The notes below the pieces were generated by a model, which saw nothing but the letters and a program-made list of their open reading frames with translations, did not search any database and was not told the origin of the DNA. Source: Sistotremastrum niveocremeum HHB9708 (taxonomy: Eukaryota > Basidiomycota > Agaricomycetes > Sistotremastrales > Sistotremastraceae). From it: 64,000 bases of DNA. Every line of letters starts with the position of its first letter. The stretch's first letter is position 1. Position numbers and translations under genes: made by a program. The stretch lies in contig KV419395.1 of the NCBI GenBank assembly GCA_001630475.1, positions 996,753 to 1,060,752 of the forward strand. The letters run 5' to 3'. Of this stretch, positions 10,994 through 28,200 are shown piece by piece.

Positions 10994-12340
10994 ATGGACG
11001 TTTTCGCCCAATTATCGTCGGGCGACGCAGTTCTCAAAATTGTCGACATGCACACCTGCGGGGAGGTCTGCTTCTGACTGCTAAGACGTAACGTCCAGTC
11101 TGAGTGTCTTTAGCCCACAAGAATTGTCATTCAAGGATTCCCTTCCCTTTCTGGAGTATCCTTGCTGCAGAAGCGAGCCTCTGCGAAAGCCCACCATGAC
11201 GACATTCGTCAACGGTACTACCTCTTCACAAGAAGACCTTGAGATTAATGGGCTTACTCATTCCTTCAGGCTTATGTTGGAGCCACGTGGACACCATGAC
11301 ATGTACGGCGCCATCTTGGTGTCCGAGACAGAGGAGAAAGAAGCCGACATAGGCGTTCTATTTTGCCACAACGGTGAGAGGTCTGTATATCTAATTGTAT
11401 GGTATTCGTCATTACGTGGGCAGAAGGGTTCTCTACAATGTGCGGTCACGCAACCATCGCGCTCGGTCGTTTCCTCATCGATACTCATGACCTGAATATA
11501 TTTCCGAACCGCGACCGCGTCGTGTTTGATCCCTCCTCCAGGACCAGTCTCCTGAAGCTCCACGCACCTTGCGGCTTAGTTCAAGTATCCATTCCAACAT
11601 TGCCGCCTTCGCAAAATTTCCCACTTCGTTCGGACCCGAGCCGCCCAGTGTCCTTTGAATCCGTTCCTTCATTCGTAGCAGTCCGGGATCTTGTGGTCAC
11701 TCTTCCCATTAACAGGCAGTGGCCTCAATTGATTTCGAGTCAAAGGGATACTGTCAGGATTGATATTGCTTATGGGGGTGCATTCTATGCCTTGGTGACG
11801 GCTCAAGAGCTTGGGTTCTCCAGCGGTCTATGCAGCCCAAGTACCATTGCGCAGTTTGACCACGCCACTCGGCTTCTGAAGATGCATGTCCAGGAAACAT
11901 CGGAATGTAGCGCATTTGTTGTGCATCCAACAGAGCCTGACTTGGGATTTCTCTATTCGGTCATTGTCGTAGACCAGAAAGGACCCACCTCGGAGCTCGG
12001 TCTATGTTTCTTCGCAGATCAGGAGCTTGATCGATCCCCGACTGGATCCGGCGTATGCGCCCGTGTCGCGCTTGCCATTGCCAAACACGAACGCGACCTT
12101 TTCGAGAACCATGAATACCACTCTGTTGTCAGTCATAAGGCTGGTGCCGGATCGTTCGTCGGTACGGCCATAGAGCGCACAACACTGCAAGGTACGGGTC
12201 GGCACTTTGGCAGACAGTGGGATGCCGTTAAGGTGAGAGTGTCGGGTAATGCATTTTATACGTCATGTTCCACAATGGTCCTGGAACGAGGGGACAGTCT
12301 TAGTGCCTCGGGATTTACCCTGTCCCTGCCCGAAAATTGA
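10994..12340 (+). CDS. L3HYPDH: Trans-3-hydroxy-L-proline dehydratase (proline racemase superfamily)
   Basis: Predicted to dehydrate trans-3-hydroxy-L-proline to 1-pyrroline-2-carboxylate in the cytosol. Four exons (10994-11065, 11114-11214, 11270-11373, 11424-12340) give about 397 residues. The N-terminus was extended through two short exons because they restore the family motif VDMHTCGEPTRIVIQGFP; starting at 11196 would lose it. Then come MLEPRGHHDMYGAIL and HNEGFSTMCGHA, whose Cys (about residue 99) is the first catalytic residue. The second site reads DRSPTGSG. The Thr there, where racemases have Cys, marks a dehydratase rather than a racemase or epimerase. It is divergent from the CLIP gene. 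Confidence 0.9.
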
Positions 12341-14008: not shown

Positions 14009-15157
14009 ATGCAGCCTCCCACTCTTGTGAACACACGCATACGTTCTGTCGAGGATGCACTCAAAGTTTTTCATGCCGTCAACCTCGAGATCTTGCCCAT
14101 GATCCATCGTCGTCTGGGCCCTGCTGAGAGGCAGGAGGTTAGACCTGGCAACGTTTATGTATGGGAGGAACGCAGTCCCAATTCCGAGCAGGTGGGCCTC
14201 GGCATCGAGAGGTGGACTGACGGACGGCAATATCAACCGTCACGAGGTAAACGTGCACCACTCTCGCTATTTTCTCCGTCGCTAACAAACAACCCGATCG
14301 CAGTGAAAGACGAATTTTTGCTTTATCTGGCCAAGCCTGACGCCTCTTCGTCCTCAACCTCGGACCACTCTCGGCAGCCAGATAATACCGGGGACGAAAA
14401 CAGACTTATCAAGCAAACCTACTCTGTCTACGTCACAGACTCCGAGCCGAGGAGGAAATGGCACCTCAGTAAGTTTTCGCCCAAATGATAATATCTTCTT
14501 ACTCAATATCTTGTTCCTTAAGCCGCATATTATACCCCTGCGATGTTACAATACCTTCACACTATCGACGCGCATCCACTTGTGGGTATGCTTCAAGTCC
14601 CAGAAGGAGCGTACGTATCAGCTCGCATACCAAGACATCCTGCCCCAAGATCACGAAACAGTGAGGAAGGTTCACCATCCAGTTCTTGGGCGAGATCATC
14701 AATCTACGAAGGACGTGGTGGTGACGGTTCGTCCAACGTCCCCATATATGCGCCGTATCCAGTTCGAATGCCAACGGCATCTGGCTCAAACGCCCAAGCT
14801 GGTCCGTCACAGAGACCACAGCTACCGCCAACCTTACCCGATTTTACTCTTCCTCCCCCGCCCGGGATGCAAGTTCCTGGGCCTTCCAGATTGATTTTAC
14901 CGCCTGTGCCGCCTCAGTACCCTCAACGCATGGCCCAGCCACCAGGCGTGTACCCTACGTATCTTGTTCCGGGCCAAGTCCCGAACAATGAAGGTCACCT
15001 GGGTACCAGTATGGTCCCCTTGGATCAGCTCCAGCAGAGGGCATATACAAACAGAGATCCATCCGACGATCGAATTGTGAGAAGTTTTCTTTTGGCTCAA
15101 CAGCCTCCCAATCCTCCCAATCCTAGCCACCCACCTGGTCCTCAGAACTTGCCATGA
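14009..15157 (+). CDS. WOPR-domain (Gti1/Pac2/Wor1 family) transcription regulator A
   Basis: Fungus-specific DNA-binding regulator related to Gti1, Pac2, Wor1 and Ryp1, which control morphology and development. Three exons (14009-14246, 14304-14468, 14523-15157) give about 345 residues. The first half of the WOPR domain includes ALKVFHAVNLEILPMIHRRL, GNVYVWEERSPNSEQ and GIERWTDGRQYQPSR. After the first intron it continues VKDEFLLY and later LIKQTYSVYV and RKWHLTAYY. The C-terminal third is Pro/Gln-rich and probably disordered. Both introns sit at the same positions and phases as two of the introns in regulator B at 22.4-23.6 kb. The start motif MQPPTL..RIRS is also shared with B, supporting both start codons. 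Confidence 0.88.
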
Positions 15158-18838: not shown

Positions 18839-20539
18839 ATGACCTTGTTCTCTTCTATGGGCTTTTACGAAGCTCAACTCGTGGTCCTTGGCCTTTTCTG
18901 TGCGGCATCGTTACTGCTCGAGAAATATGCCTCTAATCCAAAGCAAATTGGCACCACGGATGGAGAAAATTCAGGCAGCGGCTGGAAATTGAGCAAAGGC
19001 GAATCTCCAGGGTACAAAGGTCTTATGCACAAATATCTGACTGTATATGCGATCGTCATGGGTGCACTCTCAGCGTTCTCATTCCAACCAACAGCTAATT
19101 TGAAGAAACAGGCGCTGACTGGCTGCAAGGGCCCTACGTATACTCGCTATACCACGAACAATACGTCTTTTCAGAAAAGATCATTGCAATCCTTTTCGTG
19201 ACGGGCTTTACGTCTGCGGGTGTCTTTGCACCATTAGTCGGCGTGTGGGCCGATCAGCAGTCCGTTCTTCACTTTTCGCAAACCCTGCCATTGCCTGACA
19301 TCAGATACTCGTCTACAGTGGGAGAAAACGTCTCTGTCTCTACTTCTGTCTGTCTTATGCCGGGGCTTGTCTCTGCATGCTGATTCCAAAATTGCCAATT
19401 CTCTTGATGGGACGCGTTTTGGGAGGATTATCCACCTCCATCCTCTTTTCGTGTTTTGAGTCATGGCTGATGGGGTCATCTTCGTCACTTGGAGTTTCGC
19501 AATCCGAGCTATCAAATATCATGGGTCGTGCTACTCTCCTCAACGGTTTCATAGCTACCGCTGCCGGGGTGGTATCCAACGAGTTGGTAGCCAGAACTTC
19601 CAACTTCCTCAGTCCATTCATGGCCAGTGCTTTGTTGCTGGGTTTGGCTTGGCTCGTGATTCGGAAGATGTGGGATGAAAATTTCGGCGGTGATCAACAT
19701 GAAGCAGGTGCAGAGGGTCTGTTTCAGTTGGGCCGTCTCAAAAAGGCTTGGTCGATCGTTGGCAGCGGTTGGTAAACTCTTCTTCAATCGAGGTCCATAG
19801 CTCACAGTGTACGTTGCAGATACCGCCTTGCTCACTCTGGGCTTCACGCAGACCTGTTTCGAGGGGTCTATGTATCTATTTGTGTTCTTATGGGTGCCCT
19901 CCTTGCAGGAGGCGTCACCGCTGCATGTACCCCTCCCATTGGGCTACATCTTCTCCTCTTTCATGATTTCCATGATGCTTGGGTCATTAGGATACACCTG
20001 CATAGTGGCAAATCTTCCGTCCGGCTCTGATAACCTTCCTCGCTCGAACGGGCATTCAAAATCGAAAGAAACCCAACAAGACTCCCGTTTGGTAGTTCAT
20101 GCCAAATTGAGCTCTCTCGTCTGCGCCATGGCGGCGTTAGCGCTCGCTCTAGCCGTCCGTTCAGAGAACGAGCACGTTCGCTTCTGGGCATTCTGTCTTT
20201 TCGAAGGCTGCGTGGGAATGTATTATCCCGTGCAAGGCATGCTGAGGGGAGCCCTGATCCCCGAAGATCATCGAGCAACGGTGTGTGGTCAGCATTTTTT
20301 CTTTATTCGCTCTAAGGCGTTTTCAGCTTTCGTCCCTATTTCGCGTTCCCTTGAACGTGTTCGTCACCGTGTCTCTTCTGACCGGCGTCTCATCTGCTCG
20401 CAAACTGGTATTCACAGGCTGTGCGCTAGTGTTGAGCCTCTCATCGCTCTGTACTGGCTTGGTTGTCGTGCGTCGTGCCATCTCCGGCGAACTGAAATTC
20501 TCGTATGGAGGGACGAACGGCGACTTCCGATCAGCCTAG
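18839..20539 (+). CDS. MFS transporter of the molybdate-anion transporter family (MFSD5-like)
   Basis: Major facilitator protein with about twelve membrane helices, related to MFSD5/MOT2. Five exons (18839-19061, 19112-19259, 19319-19767, 19820-20280, 20327-20539) give about 497 residues. Signatures are ADWLQGPYVYSLY at the first transmembrane pair, VWADQHGRKRLCL as the MFS loop 2-3 motif (joined across an intron with donor GTCCGT), FTQTCFEGSMYLFVFLWVP in the second half, and RVPLNVFVTV near the end. The start gives a hydrophobic first helix (FYEAQLVVLGLFCAASLLL). Transport of molybdate is inferred from the family only. It converges with the sulfoxide reductase gene, with 108 bp between stop codons. 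Confidence 0.85.
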
Positions 20540-20647
20540 AGAAGGATGATCCAAAATATGTATGCACTGCTGGTATTGCTGCTACGCTGACCTGTACATA
20601 TACCCTTGTGTGGATTTTTCTAACTAATATAGAAGGACATGGACACT

Positions 20648-21286
20648 CTACATGCTGAATTTTGGCCAGTCACAGGCTTTCGCAAGCAAAATAACTATGG
20701 CTTGCAATCCCACACGATCAGCTTCATCGAATCCCGAGATGGCGAGACAGTCAAGATCCAGAACACCAATGGCGTGATCACGGTGTATTATGGGCAATAC
20801 GATCTCGCTGTTGGTGTCGCCGTCGCAGGCAATGTGGCCAGGATAGGCATTGACATCGTCTACGATGACCACTTCCCGAGAGACAAAAGCATCAGCACAG
20901 ACGCCTTTCCCTTTCTCTGCACGAATGAATTGGCACGCCGGCTTGCCACAGAATGGCCCCAGTAAAAGAAGGTCGGCATCGGGTGATGATATTGGGAATA
21001 GTTGAGATTCAAGATAGAATCCGCACCAATTCACCGCGCGAGACTCAGCACCAAACTGTTCGAAAGCGAGCAGAGAGTTGTAGATGAGAGCCGAGGCATT
21101 GGCCAAGTTTGAGATCTTGGGAACATGAGAATCCGTTTGTCAGAATCTATAAGCCGACTTGACGATGTGAAATACCCAGTTTCGCTGACCCTCTATGAGT
21201 GCAGTGAGTTGTTCGAGGACATGAGCCCAGAATTCAGCTTTGGACTTTATTTCAGGGGGGACTAGGCTCGAATCAGCGTGAGGCAT
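20648..21286 (-). CDS. Free methionine-(R)-sulfoxide reductase (GAF-domain fRMsr)
   Basis: Reduces free L-methionine-(R)-sulfoxide with thioredoxin-type electrons in the cytosol. Two exons (21286-21176 and 21115-20648) give about 192 residues, a normal size. The GAF domain contains NWCGFYL, GPFCGKPAC, KGVCADAF and PGHIACDGDTNSEIVLPI. The three cysteines of this family (in KPAC, GVC and IACD) are all present, so the enzyme should be active. The start codon follows from a 37-residue first exon ending QRNW that joins ISNLANASALIYN in phase. It is divergent from the glycolipid transfer gene, with 83 bp between start codons. Confidence 0.92.
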
Positions 21287-22234: not shown

Positions 22235-22423
22235 TTGTATACACCTCTTCAATCGTTGGAGTAGTCGATATGATCGAACGCCACAATGACATCCGCGACA
22301 TTCTCTGTGCTTTTCGGGACCGGAGGGTATGGGACGCGTCGTGGCATTCTCAAGTATCATCATGTATCGCAAACATACAAATCTAGCCATAAATCCGGAG
22401 AAATCGTATAATGAGCCTCAGAT

Positions 22424-23644
22424 TCAGAGTCCTTGGGTGAGAAATCTTAAGACCTTCTCGTCTTCAGGGCAGCGGTGGGTGCGCGGCGTCGGATTGTCCT
22501 CGAGGAAAGGAAGAGGGGTCAGACCGAGAGCGGGTCGGGGAGCGTGGTCGAGGAGAGGCGCTGGCAGTGTTAGAGGCGGAAGGGAATAGCGATGGGGAAC
22601 AAAGTGTCCATCAGACTGAATTGGCCGGAACTCATGCGCAAGCTGCCTCTCCTTCTGGCGACGGTTCTCATCGCGATCTTTGTATCTGTTCTTTGGATTT
22701 CGAGCAGATCGATAGCGACCTTCAGGGATGGGTAAAGAGGCGATGAAGGGAATGTCGTCGACAGTCCCTAGTTCCTCCACGTGGCCTTGCGCAAAGTATG
22801 CAGCTGGGGAGACCCGTCAAGAAGGGTCTATATGCATAGAACGATCGACGCACTGAGATGCCATTTCTTCATACCCTGACGCTCATCCTGGATGAACACA
22901 CTGTACGTCTGCTTAATCAGGCTCTCAAGATCGTCGGCTGAGCTTCTGGGTTGATCGTACGGGCTGCTGCCGGTGGGGGAAGCGCCTTGTTTTCTGCTCG
23001 AGGACAAGTGAGATAGAGACGGTGGTACGAGTTAAGTGAGATTACCTCGCCCACTTGGAAGGTCGCTCGGGATGCTCTGCATCTCGTTCAGTGTAGAACA
23101 GAAAGTCCTACGGATGCGGGAGACAAGACAGAATCCAGTTAGATGAAGGTTGACTTGTGTGAGAAATCGTCTTACGTCTCTAACTAATTAGGCGGGGTGA
23201 ACATGGGGAACACCATGAGGGGTCATGGATACATACCACGGGATGGGCCATATGTCCTAAGACGCACAAACGAGGTCGGTATTTGGGACCACTTTATCGA
23301 TGTTATCAGAGCTCACCTTCCGCTACAGCAGACAAGGACAGGGTCCTGTGAGACAGCGAGAGCGAAGAAGAGATATGGAGACTGACTCTGTCCAACGTTC
23401 AATGCCGAGGCTGGTGGCGTCGTTCACTGCACCACGTTCTTCCCAGACCCAAACGTCTCCGGACTTGAGTGCACGTCGTTCCTCGCCGTCGAGGCGTCGG
23501 ACGGTTAGTGGGAGTTTGTTTAGTTCTACGGCACGGATAATGCGATGGGCATCTTGAGTGGATCTGCAGGACGATGAGAGCGAGTTGGGGGCGGGAAAGA
23601 CGGGAAGACCTGATGCGGATGCCAGAGCACGTCGGACGCTGCAT
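22424..23644 (-). CDS. WOPR-domain (Gti1/Pac2/Wor1 family) transcription regulator B, with three consecutive microexons
   Basis: Paralogue of regulator A and probably also a developmental DNA-binding regulator. Eight exons are inferred: 23644-23610, 23563-23387, 23322-23317 (6 nt), 23256-23237 (20 nt), 23183-23176 (8 nt), 23107-23046, 22993-22854 and 22803-22424. They sum to 828 nt (275 residues) with phase closing at each junction. Exon 2 ends in GIERWT; the microexons supply DGR, TYGPSR and VRD; the next exon continues DFLFYTERD. This restores the near-invariant WOPR core RWTDGR-x-x-PSR. Further on are LIKQTYSVFIQD and KKWHLTAYF, with an intron at the same place as in A. The C-terminal part is rich in Pro, Arg and Lys. 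Skipping the microexons would break the core DNA-binding domain. Confidence 0.85.
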
Positions 23645-23866
23645 GGTGAGGAGGCAGACGGGGCTGGGAGAGGATATTTAGAGTGAGGGAAGCGACATTT
23701 GAGCCAGATCACGATATCGGCAAAGAAAGCGAAATAAGAGATTAGTTATTCATTTAGGTTCAATCTCGGGATCAGATTCAAAGGTACAGCGACGCCTCCT
23801 TTCTCCATTGAGCCCGCCCAGTCCCTAGCTCCCAGTCACGCGCTCCCTGCTCTCCCACTCCCGTCC

Positions 23867-25261: not shown

Positions 25262-28200
25262 ATGGAAGTCGATAGCCCAGATGGCCTGGGGGTCCCTTCT
25301 CGATCTATCGATATCGAGATTGGAGGGCAGGAAATTGTCACCATTGACTTGGACAACCTCGACCCGAGCCCTCAAGATGTGCTGGACTTGTTGCAAGAGG
25401 CGAACTGTTCTGAGTGGATCTGGACCCAATTTGCGTCCGAATACTGGAGAAAGGGCTGGTATCCCGCAGCTGAGCGCATATTGGAGACTGCTACGCAAGG
25501 TCATATGGATCTACTCTCTATATAGCGTTTCTGACATTTCAACGCAGTATTCAACGGCAAAAGCAACTCGTCCAGTGCCCTGTGGCCCATTTACGCATTC
25601 CAGGCCAACGTCCAATTAGCAAACGCGAGGAAGGCTCCAAAAGTCGTCCTTTCCAATGCTCGTATGCGGTATTCTTTTCCTTGCTATAGATTTTTACGAG
25701 TCTTTGCCTATAGGGAGAGATGTCATGAGCGAAGGTATCAACAAAGAACACTACTACAAGGAGGCGGCAGGACTGTTGAACAAAGCTGATGCTGCGCGAG
25801 GAGAAGCGGGAATAGGTGCGAGCGGTCAAAATCTCCTGTTGTTAACACGAGGTACGAATACTTTACTTGTCGCTGATGGTCACTGAAGACATACTCAGCC
25901 ATATACCGTCTCTCCACACGATCGATGGACGAAGCTTTGCAACATTTCGACATGATACTCCAAGACACTCCGACCAATGTTGTTGCCTTGATGGGAAAGG
26001 TGTTCCGTCTTCGTGTTTATGCGTCCGGTATCTAACAGTTTACGGAAGGCACGAATATTCTACGCGAAACGAGACTGGCCACATGCTTTGAAACTATTCC
26101 AAGACGTACTTACATACTGTCCATCATGCAAGCCTGATCCCCGTGTTGGAATTGGCCTCTGTTTATGGGCTATGGGCAATCGAGAGAAAGCGAAAGCTGC
26201 ATGGCAACGCAGTCTTGAAGTCGTGGGCCTTCTTCTCTTTTGCATACCCCGACAATGTGTCACTCACATTTCATCAGAATCCGGGAGATTGGGCGGCTCA
26301 AGTTCTATTAGGCTTGGAGGCCATCAACTGCAGCAAAGATTCCAATAGACCAGAAGAAGAACGAATCAGCTACTACGCCGTTGGATCAAAATACATTGAG
26401 AGAGCATTTAAGGCAAATAATCGGAATGCCTCTGCTGCCAATGCTCTAAGTGAATTCTTTCTTCGTAAGAATGACTTGTCAAATGTAAGTGTATTCAAGG
26501 CGTTTGTAGACCCCTACTGACCCCATTCAAGGCTATGAAACTGGCCGAACGGACAATCCAATGCGCCGATACCCTAACTCTTCTTTCGGATGGACACCTG
26601 AGAGCTGCGCGAGTTTTCCACGCAGAAGGGTCCACGAAAGTAGCAGCTAAACATTATCAAGCATCGGCAGAAGGCCAACAAAACCACACCCTTTCGGCTA
26701 TCGGATTGGCGCAAATGCAGCTCCAAGCCGACGAAGTTTCGGCTGCTATCCATACTCTTGAGTCGCTCCAAACTTCAAGTAGCGACAAATCTCTCGAGGC
26801 AACCGTGATGCTAGCCTCAATGAGAGCAAACGCGCGACCCGGCGTTTCTTCAGCAGATGCGGCCGCTGATCGCTTACGTGCCCGGGACATGTATGACCAC
26901 TTCCTCAAAGCGATTGAGACGGTAGACGTATCTGCTGGCCCTTCAACCCGAACGGTTCGAAATCTCGGCGATGATATGGAAATGCATCTTGAGATTGCTC
27001 GATTGTGGCAGGACGACAATTTAGATCGGATGTCTCGTGCCCTGAAAGAAGCCATCCGTATAGGAAGAATGTCTGGCAAGGTTGACCCACGGCTTACCAA
27101 TAATCTCGCAGCTTTGAAGCAAATGGAAGGCGACTTGGATGAGGCCAGGGCTATGTACGAGGATGCTCTCCGTGCTGCTTCTCAGTCGACCGCGGAAGCA
27201 GATAAAGATATGCCGACAACAATTTTATACAACCTCGGCAGGGTCTACGAAGATCAAGGAGCCGTGGATATGGCGAAAGACGCGTACGAAAAATTGTTAG
27301 AGCGTTATCCAGAATATGTGGATGGTATGTGTGATTTCTGAGGTCATCATGGTGCATGCTTAATTATCTTGCAGCTAAAATTCGGCAAGCGCACATCTTG
27401 CGCGATCTTAATCAAACGAACGAAGCACATGAACTTCTGAAACAAGCCTTATCGGCTGCAAGCAACAATTTGAATCTTCGAGCGTTCTATATCTATTTCT
27501 TGATCCAAAGCAATATGCTCAAAACTGCAAAAGATTTCGTCTTTGCAACCTTGAAGGATCATGACAAACACGACATCTATTCCTTATGTTCAGCAGGATG
27601 GATCATGTATCAGCAGGCCCGTGAAAATCGTGAAACTACACCAGAGGGTGTCAAAGCTCGACGACGCGGATTTGAACGGTCAGCGGAGTTGTATGAAAAG
27701 GCCCTTTCACTGGATCCTCTATGCGCATTCGCTGCCCAAGGCCTTGCTATTGTGACTGCCGAAGATTCTTTGGGTACGCTGACCGGACCAGCTCCACTGA
27801 CAGATGACTCCCTTCAACGTGCCAAGTACGCTCGTGAAGCCTTGGATGTATTTGCGAAAGTGCGAGAGTCGATGAACGATGGCAGCGTTTACGCGAACAT
27901 GGGCCATTGTTACTACGCTCGTGATGAGTTTGATCGTGCTCTAGAGAGCGTGAGTCATGTTTTACGTTTGAGAAGCCCGCACTTACCCAACCTCCAGTAC
28001 GAAACAGCGTCTAAGAAATTCTACAATGATCGCAACGTGCCAGTTCTACTTTGTCTTTCGCGTACCAACTATGCCAAAGCTACGAAAGATCAAAGCTACG
28101 CGCATGTTACCCTAGCTTTGAACTATGCCGAGCAGGTGTGATACTTCCATATTTTCATCTGCCTCTATTGATGTTTTATTGAAGGCTTTACACATACACC

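Follow-up and report, generated by a model that had tools for sequence, protein, structure and literature searches.

A WOPR (Gti1/Pac2) gene of Sistotremastrum niveocremeum HHB9708, here called gene B, raises the question of whether three consecutive exons of 6, 20 and 8 nt can encode the core of a conserved DNA-binding domain and, if they do, how such exons are brought into the transcript. A first-pass annotation of the window (the whole 64,000-nt stretch of DNA that was analysed) had proposed this arrangement and had suggested that the microexons might form a switch.

Results

Anatomy of gene B

Gene B is a minus-strand gene of 8 exons that occupies positions 23644 to 22424. The phases close exactly, as the first-pass annotation had it, and spliced translation yields a coding sequence of 828 nt and 275 amino acids with a single stop, at its end. 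The spliced protein scores 81.4 bits against PF09729, above the curated cut-off of 23.6, where the match over exon 2 before splicing had reached 43.7 bits; the best stretch covers positions 6–97 of the 168 in the profile and stops short of WOPRb. This second part of the domain (SLIKQTYS...KKWHLTAYF) aligns well with five paralogues and poorly with the Wor1-like copy at locus C52. Relatives with known structures (4qtj/4qtk and 4m8b) can be aligned through the core, and the gene B protein is predicted to bind DNA.

Exon 2 (23387–23563) ends in ...GIERWT followed by the two nucleotides GA (phase 2), and exon 6 (23046–23107) starts with DFLFY. The 279-nt gap between these exons holds three microexons and four introns. 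Core intron 1 (23323–23386, 64 nt, GTCAGT...TAG) is followed by microexon 1 (23317–23322, 6 nt, CGGAAG). Core intron 2 (23257–23316, 60 nt, GTGAGC...TAG) leads to microexon 2 (23237–23256, 20 nt, GACATATGGCCCATCCCGTG), encoding TYGPSR with split codons at both ends. Core intron 3 (23184–23236, 53 nt, GTATGT...TAG) leads to microexon 3 (23176–23183, 8 nt, TTAGAGAC), which completes a V and gives R and D, and which has the least certain 5' boundary of the three. Core intron 4 (23108–23175, 68 nt, GTAAGA...TAG) carries a branch-point-like CTAAC with its A ~31 nt before the intron end. The GTCAGT that starts core intron 1 also opens introns in the paralogues C4 and C53a. All of these positions, lengths and GT...TAG borders agree with those first proposed.

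The microexons supply D-G-R, T-Y-G-P-S-R and V-R-D, and the WOPRa core RWTDG..PSR..FL.Y appears only once all three are spliced in. With a microexon taken to be an internal exon no longer than about 30 nt, the predicted 6-, 20- and 8-nt exons belong to this class by length and have canonical flanking splice sites. The predicted microexon anatomy of gene B looks real, as judged from sequence.

Fit of the exon chain and its splice sites

The exon chain was compared to its alternatives by enumerating all GT/GC...AG intron chains in the 279-nt gap with up to five introns and any in-frame length keeping no more than 75 nt, and by scoring the peptide of every in-frame chain against the corresponding stretch at the six remaining WOPR loci. 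The proposed chain was at the top of 417 open chains, with a score of 61.0 against 50.0 for the runner-up, and the best models with one, two or three introns reached 4.8, 26.2 and 39.0, respectively. Dinucleotide-shuffled gaps never attained 61.0 (0 of 2,000, with a maximum of 42.0), nor did any of 400 sequences in a narrower, restricted shuffle test reach the real score. The fit is better than chance.

The splice sites were scored with a profile blind to protein fit and trained on 15 other WOPR introns, a small set drawn from 22 modelled introns after exclusion of the four under test, two GC-AG introns and a 24-nt 'intron' modelled for C53b, which was discarded as a modelling slip. Among the 29 GTs in 23440–23051, the predicted donors of core introns 1 to 4 rank 2, 1, 3 and 5, making them ordinary donor signals.

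The codons of the microexons were also compared to those of paralogues. Against C4, 13 of 36 nucleotides differ, 8 of them at third positions, and 10 of 12 residues are kept, a result equalled by none of 20,000 random placements. Paralogue A shows 11 differences (5 at third positions) with 9 of 12 residues kept (39 of 20,000 placements), and C44 shows 15 (9 at third positions) with 7 of 12 kept (156 of 20,000). Because the exons were picked by protein fit, this codon test is not independent of the exon model.

WOPR paralogues and intron history

A search of the genome (34.7 Mb in 111 contigs) with PF09729 returned 9 matches, which fall into seven gene loci: C52, C4, C44, two on C53, and genes A and B, both on C2 within the window. 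Most fungal genomes, by comparison, have two WOPR loci (PMC4917244; papers are cited by PMC number for the excerpts of their text that were used). The two C53 genes are divergent and about 4 kb apart, while A and B are about 7 kb apart. The WOPRa part could be read at all seven loci, with the C44 and C53a models showing stops in the variable linker (an unmodelled intron); the modelled phase of the second C44 intron was not used. Within the stretch encoded by the microexons, six aligned loci all keep D, G, R, S and R; the first R is not kept in C52.

Only gene B, among the seven paralogues, has microexons in its core. Paralogue A (14009–15157, plus strand, 3 exons, 84.3 bits) has one core intron, at 14247–14303, located at the exact codon and phase of core intron 3 of B, in keeping with the shared intron previously noted. 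As this intron is common to A and B, it most likely predates their split, to judge from its position. C4 has no core intron and has the highest identity to B over WOPRa and WOPRb (57%, vs. 50% for A). In phylogenetic analysis, to which the two PDB outgroups contributed WOPRa alone, genes A, B and C4 group together with bootstrap 93 and ultrafast 89, and a WOPRb intron is common to all three; the branching inside this clade is poorly supported (bootstrap 47, ultrafast 45). None of the six other loci has an intron at the exact position of core intron 1, 2 or 4. The simplest reading of these three introns is gain in the B lineage, with repeated loss elsewhere as a possible alternative.

Near-coincident introns occur at three other loci. 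The core intron of C44 sits exactly one codon further downstream than core intron 3 of B, and both C53 genes have theirs exactly one codon past the position of core intron 2, in each case in the same phase; either intron sliding or separate insertion is conceivable for these offsets. C52 likely has a GC-AG intron (52 nt, GCAGGT) directly after the core, following GNFL, and the first intron of C4 is likely of the same type (48 nt, GCGAGT).

A recent origin of the B introns by insertion of introner-type elements was considered and rejected. The 279-nt gap matches only itself genome-wide at E ≤ 1, among the best candidates scored and with common words skipped, and no direct repeats of at least 14 nt link the B introns to each other. 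That this search found no second copy of the gap argues against mobile introns having spread recently. The sole 15-nt near-repeat in 22400–23700 is shared by core intron 4 and the last exon and appears to be incidental.

Similar short acidic-then-hydrophobic motifs were seen by eye at or near the C-terminal ends of the six proteins compared (all but that of C52) and may form a conserved interaction tail: PEDEKVLRFL in B (about 22424–22480, minus strand), SDDRIVRSFL in A (about 15060–15100, plus strand), VDEQAVRAF in C4, TEDQRIIQLL in C44, VEDRKALEAF in C53a and SEDRRVLNTF in C53b.

Discussion

Probable intron definition and inclusion by default

For introns this short, recognition is believed to take place across the intron. 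It is probable that the crowded WOPR motif of an intact gene B is spliced constitutively in this manner. Introns crowd the most conserved coding stretch of the gene, so that the exons between them measure no more than 6, 20 and 8 nt. Under intron definition, each 53–68-nt core intron would be treated as a separate unit, and the four would be spliced out one after another. Since removal of the introns one by one would join each microexon to a longer neighbour, no special enhancer would be needed; the microexons would be included by default and the invariant DGR..PSR core restored. Splicing mistakes would be removed as early-stop transcripts, with retained introns as the usual failure mode. Worm microexons require the bridging factor PRP-40 except where their introns are very short: the two that do without PRP-40 are flanked by introns of this kind, and a swapped-in 58-nt intron abolishes the dependence of another (PMC8378409). 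In plants, the introns flanking a microexon are likely removed sequentially (PMC8831610). These findings lead to the expectation of default inclusion in gene B, and an ordinary mechanism is the most likely one for its microexons.

The statement in the first-pass annotation that 6 nt is close to the lower limit for splicing is out of date: exons of 6 bp were reported in 2005 in a basidiomycete P450 set (PMC1184071), and a 1-nt exon with supporting reads is described for Fusarium P450 genes (PMC12940212). As late as 2015, an exon of 6 nt was nonetheless called the smallest constitutive one known (PMC4674806).

Skipping, retention and a possible regulated switch

The cost of failed splicing was computed for each combination of skipped microexons and for each single retained intron. 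Six of the seven skip combinations shift the frame and stop at codon 72–119, and all four single retentions of core introns stop early, at codon 74–151. The exception is the skip of the 6-nt exon, which stays in frame, converts TDGRTYG to TETYG (E in place of DGR) and ends at the normal stop; its product drops to 67.6 bits, which is still above the Pfam cut-off. The earlier claim that skipping any microexon damages the domain holds in two forms: as frame shift and early stop for the other skips, and for the 6-nt exon as an in-frame exchange in a protein that the profile continues to accept.

These outcomes would suit a regulated switch, in which stage-dependent skipping or retention determines whether a DNA-binding WOPR protein is made, or none, or an in-frame form without DGR. 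Nearly all of the lapses disrupt the protein within the core or shortly past it (stops at codon 72–151), and the 6-nt skip provides the in-frame variant. Precedents can be found in fungi: in Trichoderma, glucose regulates a 20-nt microexon that encodes part of a DNA-binding domain (PMC11121469), alternative splicing in Coprinopsis is stage-dependent with intron retention as a major type (PMC10532568), and Flammulina primordia show strong induction of a Gti1/Pac2 gene (PMC7567395). The features of the locus itself point the other way. The core introns are short and their donors ordinary, and RNA structure beyond chance was not found in the microexon region, where predicted folding is no better than that of shuffled sequences (z 0.38; 60 of 100 shuffles at least as stable). 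Nothing found at the locus supports regulation of this kind, which is considered possible but unlikely.

A more elaborate version would make splicing a gate on a developmental regulator, with full inclusion giving the DNA-binding WOPR protein, the 6-nt skip giving the in-frame form without DGR, and other lapses giving an early stop. If true, WOPR activity would be set by the stage-dependent efficiency of short-intron splicing, and the form without DGR may compete with the full protein or fail to bind. This is improbable for gene B and is offered as speculation. The main text of one paper on mushroom development makes no mention of WOPR genes (PMC8893723).

Boundaries of the microexons

Splicing could also use slightly different boundaries from those proposed, either at the tandem acceptors 23184, 23180 and 23178 (TTAGTTAGAG), which would leave a third exon of 8, 4 or 2 nt, or at an acceptor at 23346. 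The acceptor of the 8-nt exon (23184) is weak, scoring -1.3 against a span of -2.8 to 7.7 for the 15 training introns, and it is outscored by the AGs ending at 23180 (-0.7) and 23178 (0.2). As a result, the 5' boundary of this exon rests mostly on homology, namely VRD in B compared to VKD in A, VRD in C4 and MRG in C44. The choice of 23178 remains in frame and loses VR only, but it lowers the protein score from 61.0 to 43.3, and all six paralogues have two residues at this place. Within core intron 1, the CAG ending at 23346 scores 9.0, above the 5.7 of the predicted acceptor, but its use needs a 41-nt intron, while the shortest intron accepted in the seven genes is 46 nt; the best in-frame chain through 23346 also requires a weak donor at 23339 (score 1.2) and likewise reaches 43.3. 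Boundaries other than those given above are considered improbable.

The strong CAG at 23346, 41 nt from the donor of core intron 1, could yield minor mis-spliced transcripts.

A probably intact gene

Scans of two collections (genome_contigs and viral_contigs) with an alignment of six of the seven WOPRa segments gave 29 and 12 pattern matches, respectively, none of which was confirmed as a WOPR orthologue, as is expected of collections that are prokaryote and virus. That gene B is a decaying copy, that its fit is coincidental or that the assembly is at fault is very improbable: such a reading would be favoured by the failure to find an orthologue in these prokaryote and virus collections, and against it stand 8 exons without an internal stop, codon drift mostly at third positions relative to C4 and C44, the shuffle results, and a C-terminal end that by eye resembles those of five paralogues and so speaks against decay.

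Comparison to known microexons

Human RPS24 is a gene with long vertebrate introns. Like gene B it has three consecutive microexons, in its case of 3, 18 and 22 bp; it encodes a ribosomal protein, unlike gene B, and is alternatively spliced (PMC12686416). Closer in phylogeny, the P450 genes of Phanerochaete chrysosporium, a member of the same phylum, have exons down to 6 bp between small introns (PMC1184071, PMC12940212), and an 8-nt exon within a conserved motif is described among P450 microexons (PMC12940212). These are enzyme genes, however, and three microexons in a row within one motif are not described in the excerpted text of PMC1184071 and PMC12940212. The 1-nt exon of Fusarium CYP621A was deduced in the same way as the exons of gene B, by phase and by a conserved motif, and was gauged against an intronless relative, a role played here by the core of C4. 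It differs in being a single exon of an enzyme gene that is confirmed by reads and conserved in 20 orthologues (PMC12940212), whereas gene B is known from the sequence of one genome.

Microexons in the DNA-binding domains of transcription factors provide a second set of comparisons. In Trichoderma Xlr2, a 20-nt microexon that was missed by annotation encodes part of such a domain, but the domain is of the Zn2Cys6 type and the microexon is single and glucose-regulated with RNA evidence (PMC11121469), as opposed to the three predicted for gene B. The 9-nt microexon of plant AP2 genes encodes the core of the DNA-binding domain and is often misannotated; it too is single, and it is common to many plant genes (PMC8831610), while core microexons occur in one of seven paralogues here. 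No paper on microexons in a WOPR gene was recognised among the open-licence literature matches listed. The kind of exon is already known, and the unusual part is the unusually dense run of three in a row across the conserved core of a transcription factor.

Gene B can serve as a small natural experiment on the splicing, in fungi, of exons whose length does not allow exon definition. It has three of them in succession, and its own genome supplies paralogues with a single core intron, or with none, as controls. It also illustrates how annotation can erase the core motif of a regulator family on paper, as a gene model without the 6-nt exon scores above the Pfam cut-off all the same. Where a fungal transcription factor seemingly has no DNA-binding domain, an annotation error is in many instances the cause, one case being a mispredicted exon of two residues (PMC10141177).

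Genomic surroundings

Pfam matches on single open reading frames identify neighbours of the two WOPR genes of the window between 9642 and 28141: CAP-Gly (10754–9642), proline racemase (11399–12340), TFIIA alpha/beta (16599–15871), MFS_5 (19807–20658), GAF (21106–20648) and TPR repeats (26535–28141, on two reading frames). In the genome as a whole, at least 151 matches to DUF6535 were recorded (150 of 312 candidates scored), along with one match above the cut-off to the basidiomycete mating pheromone family.
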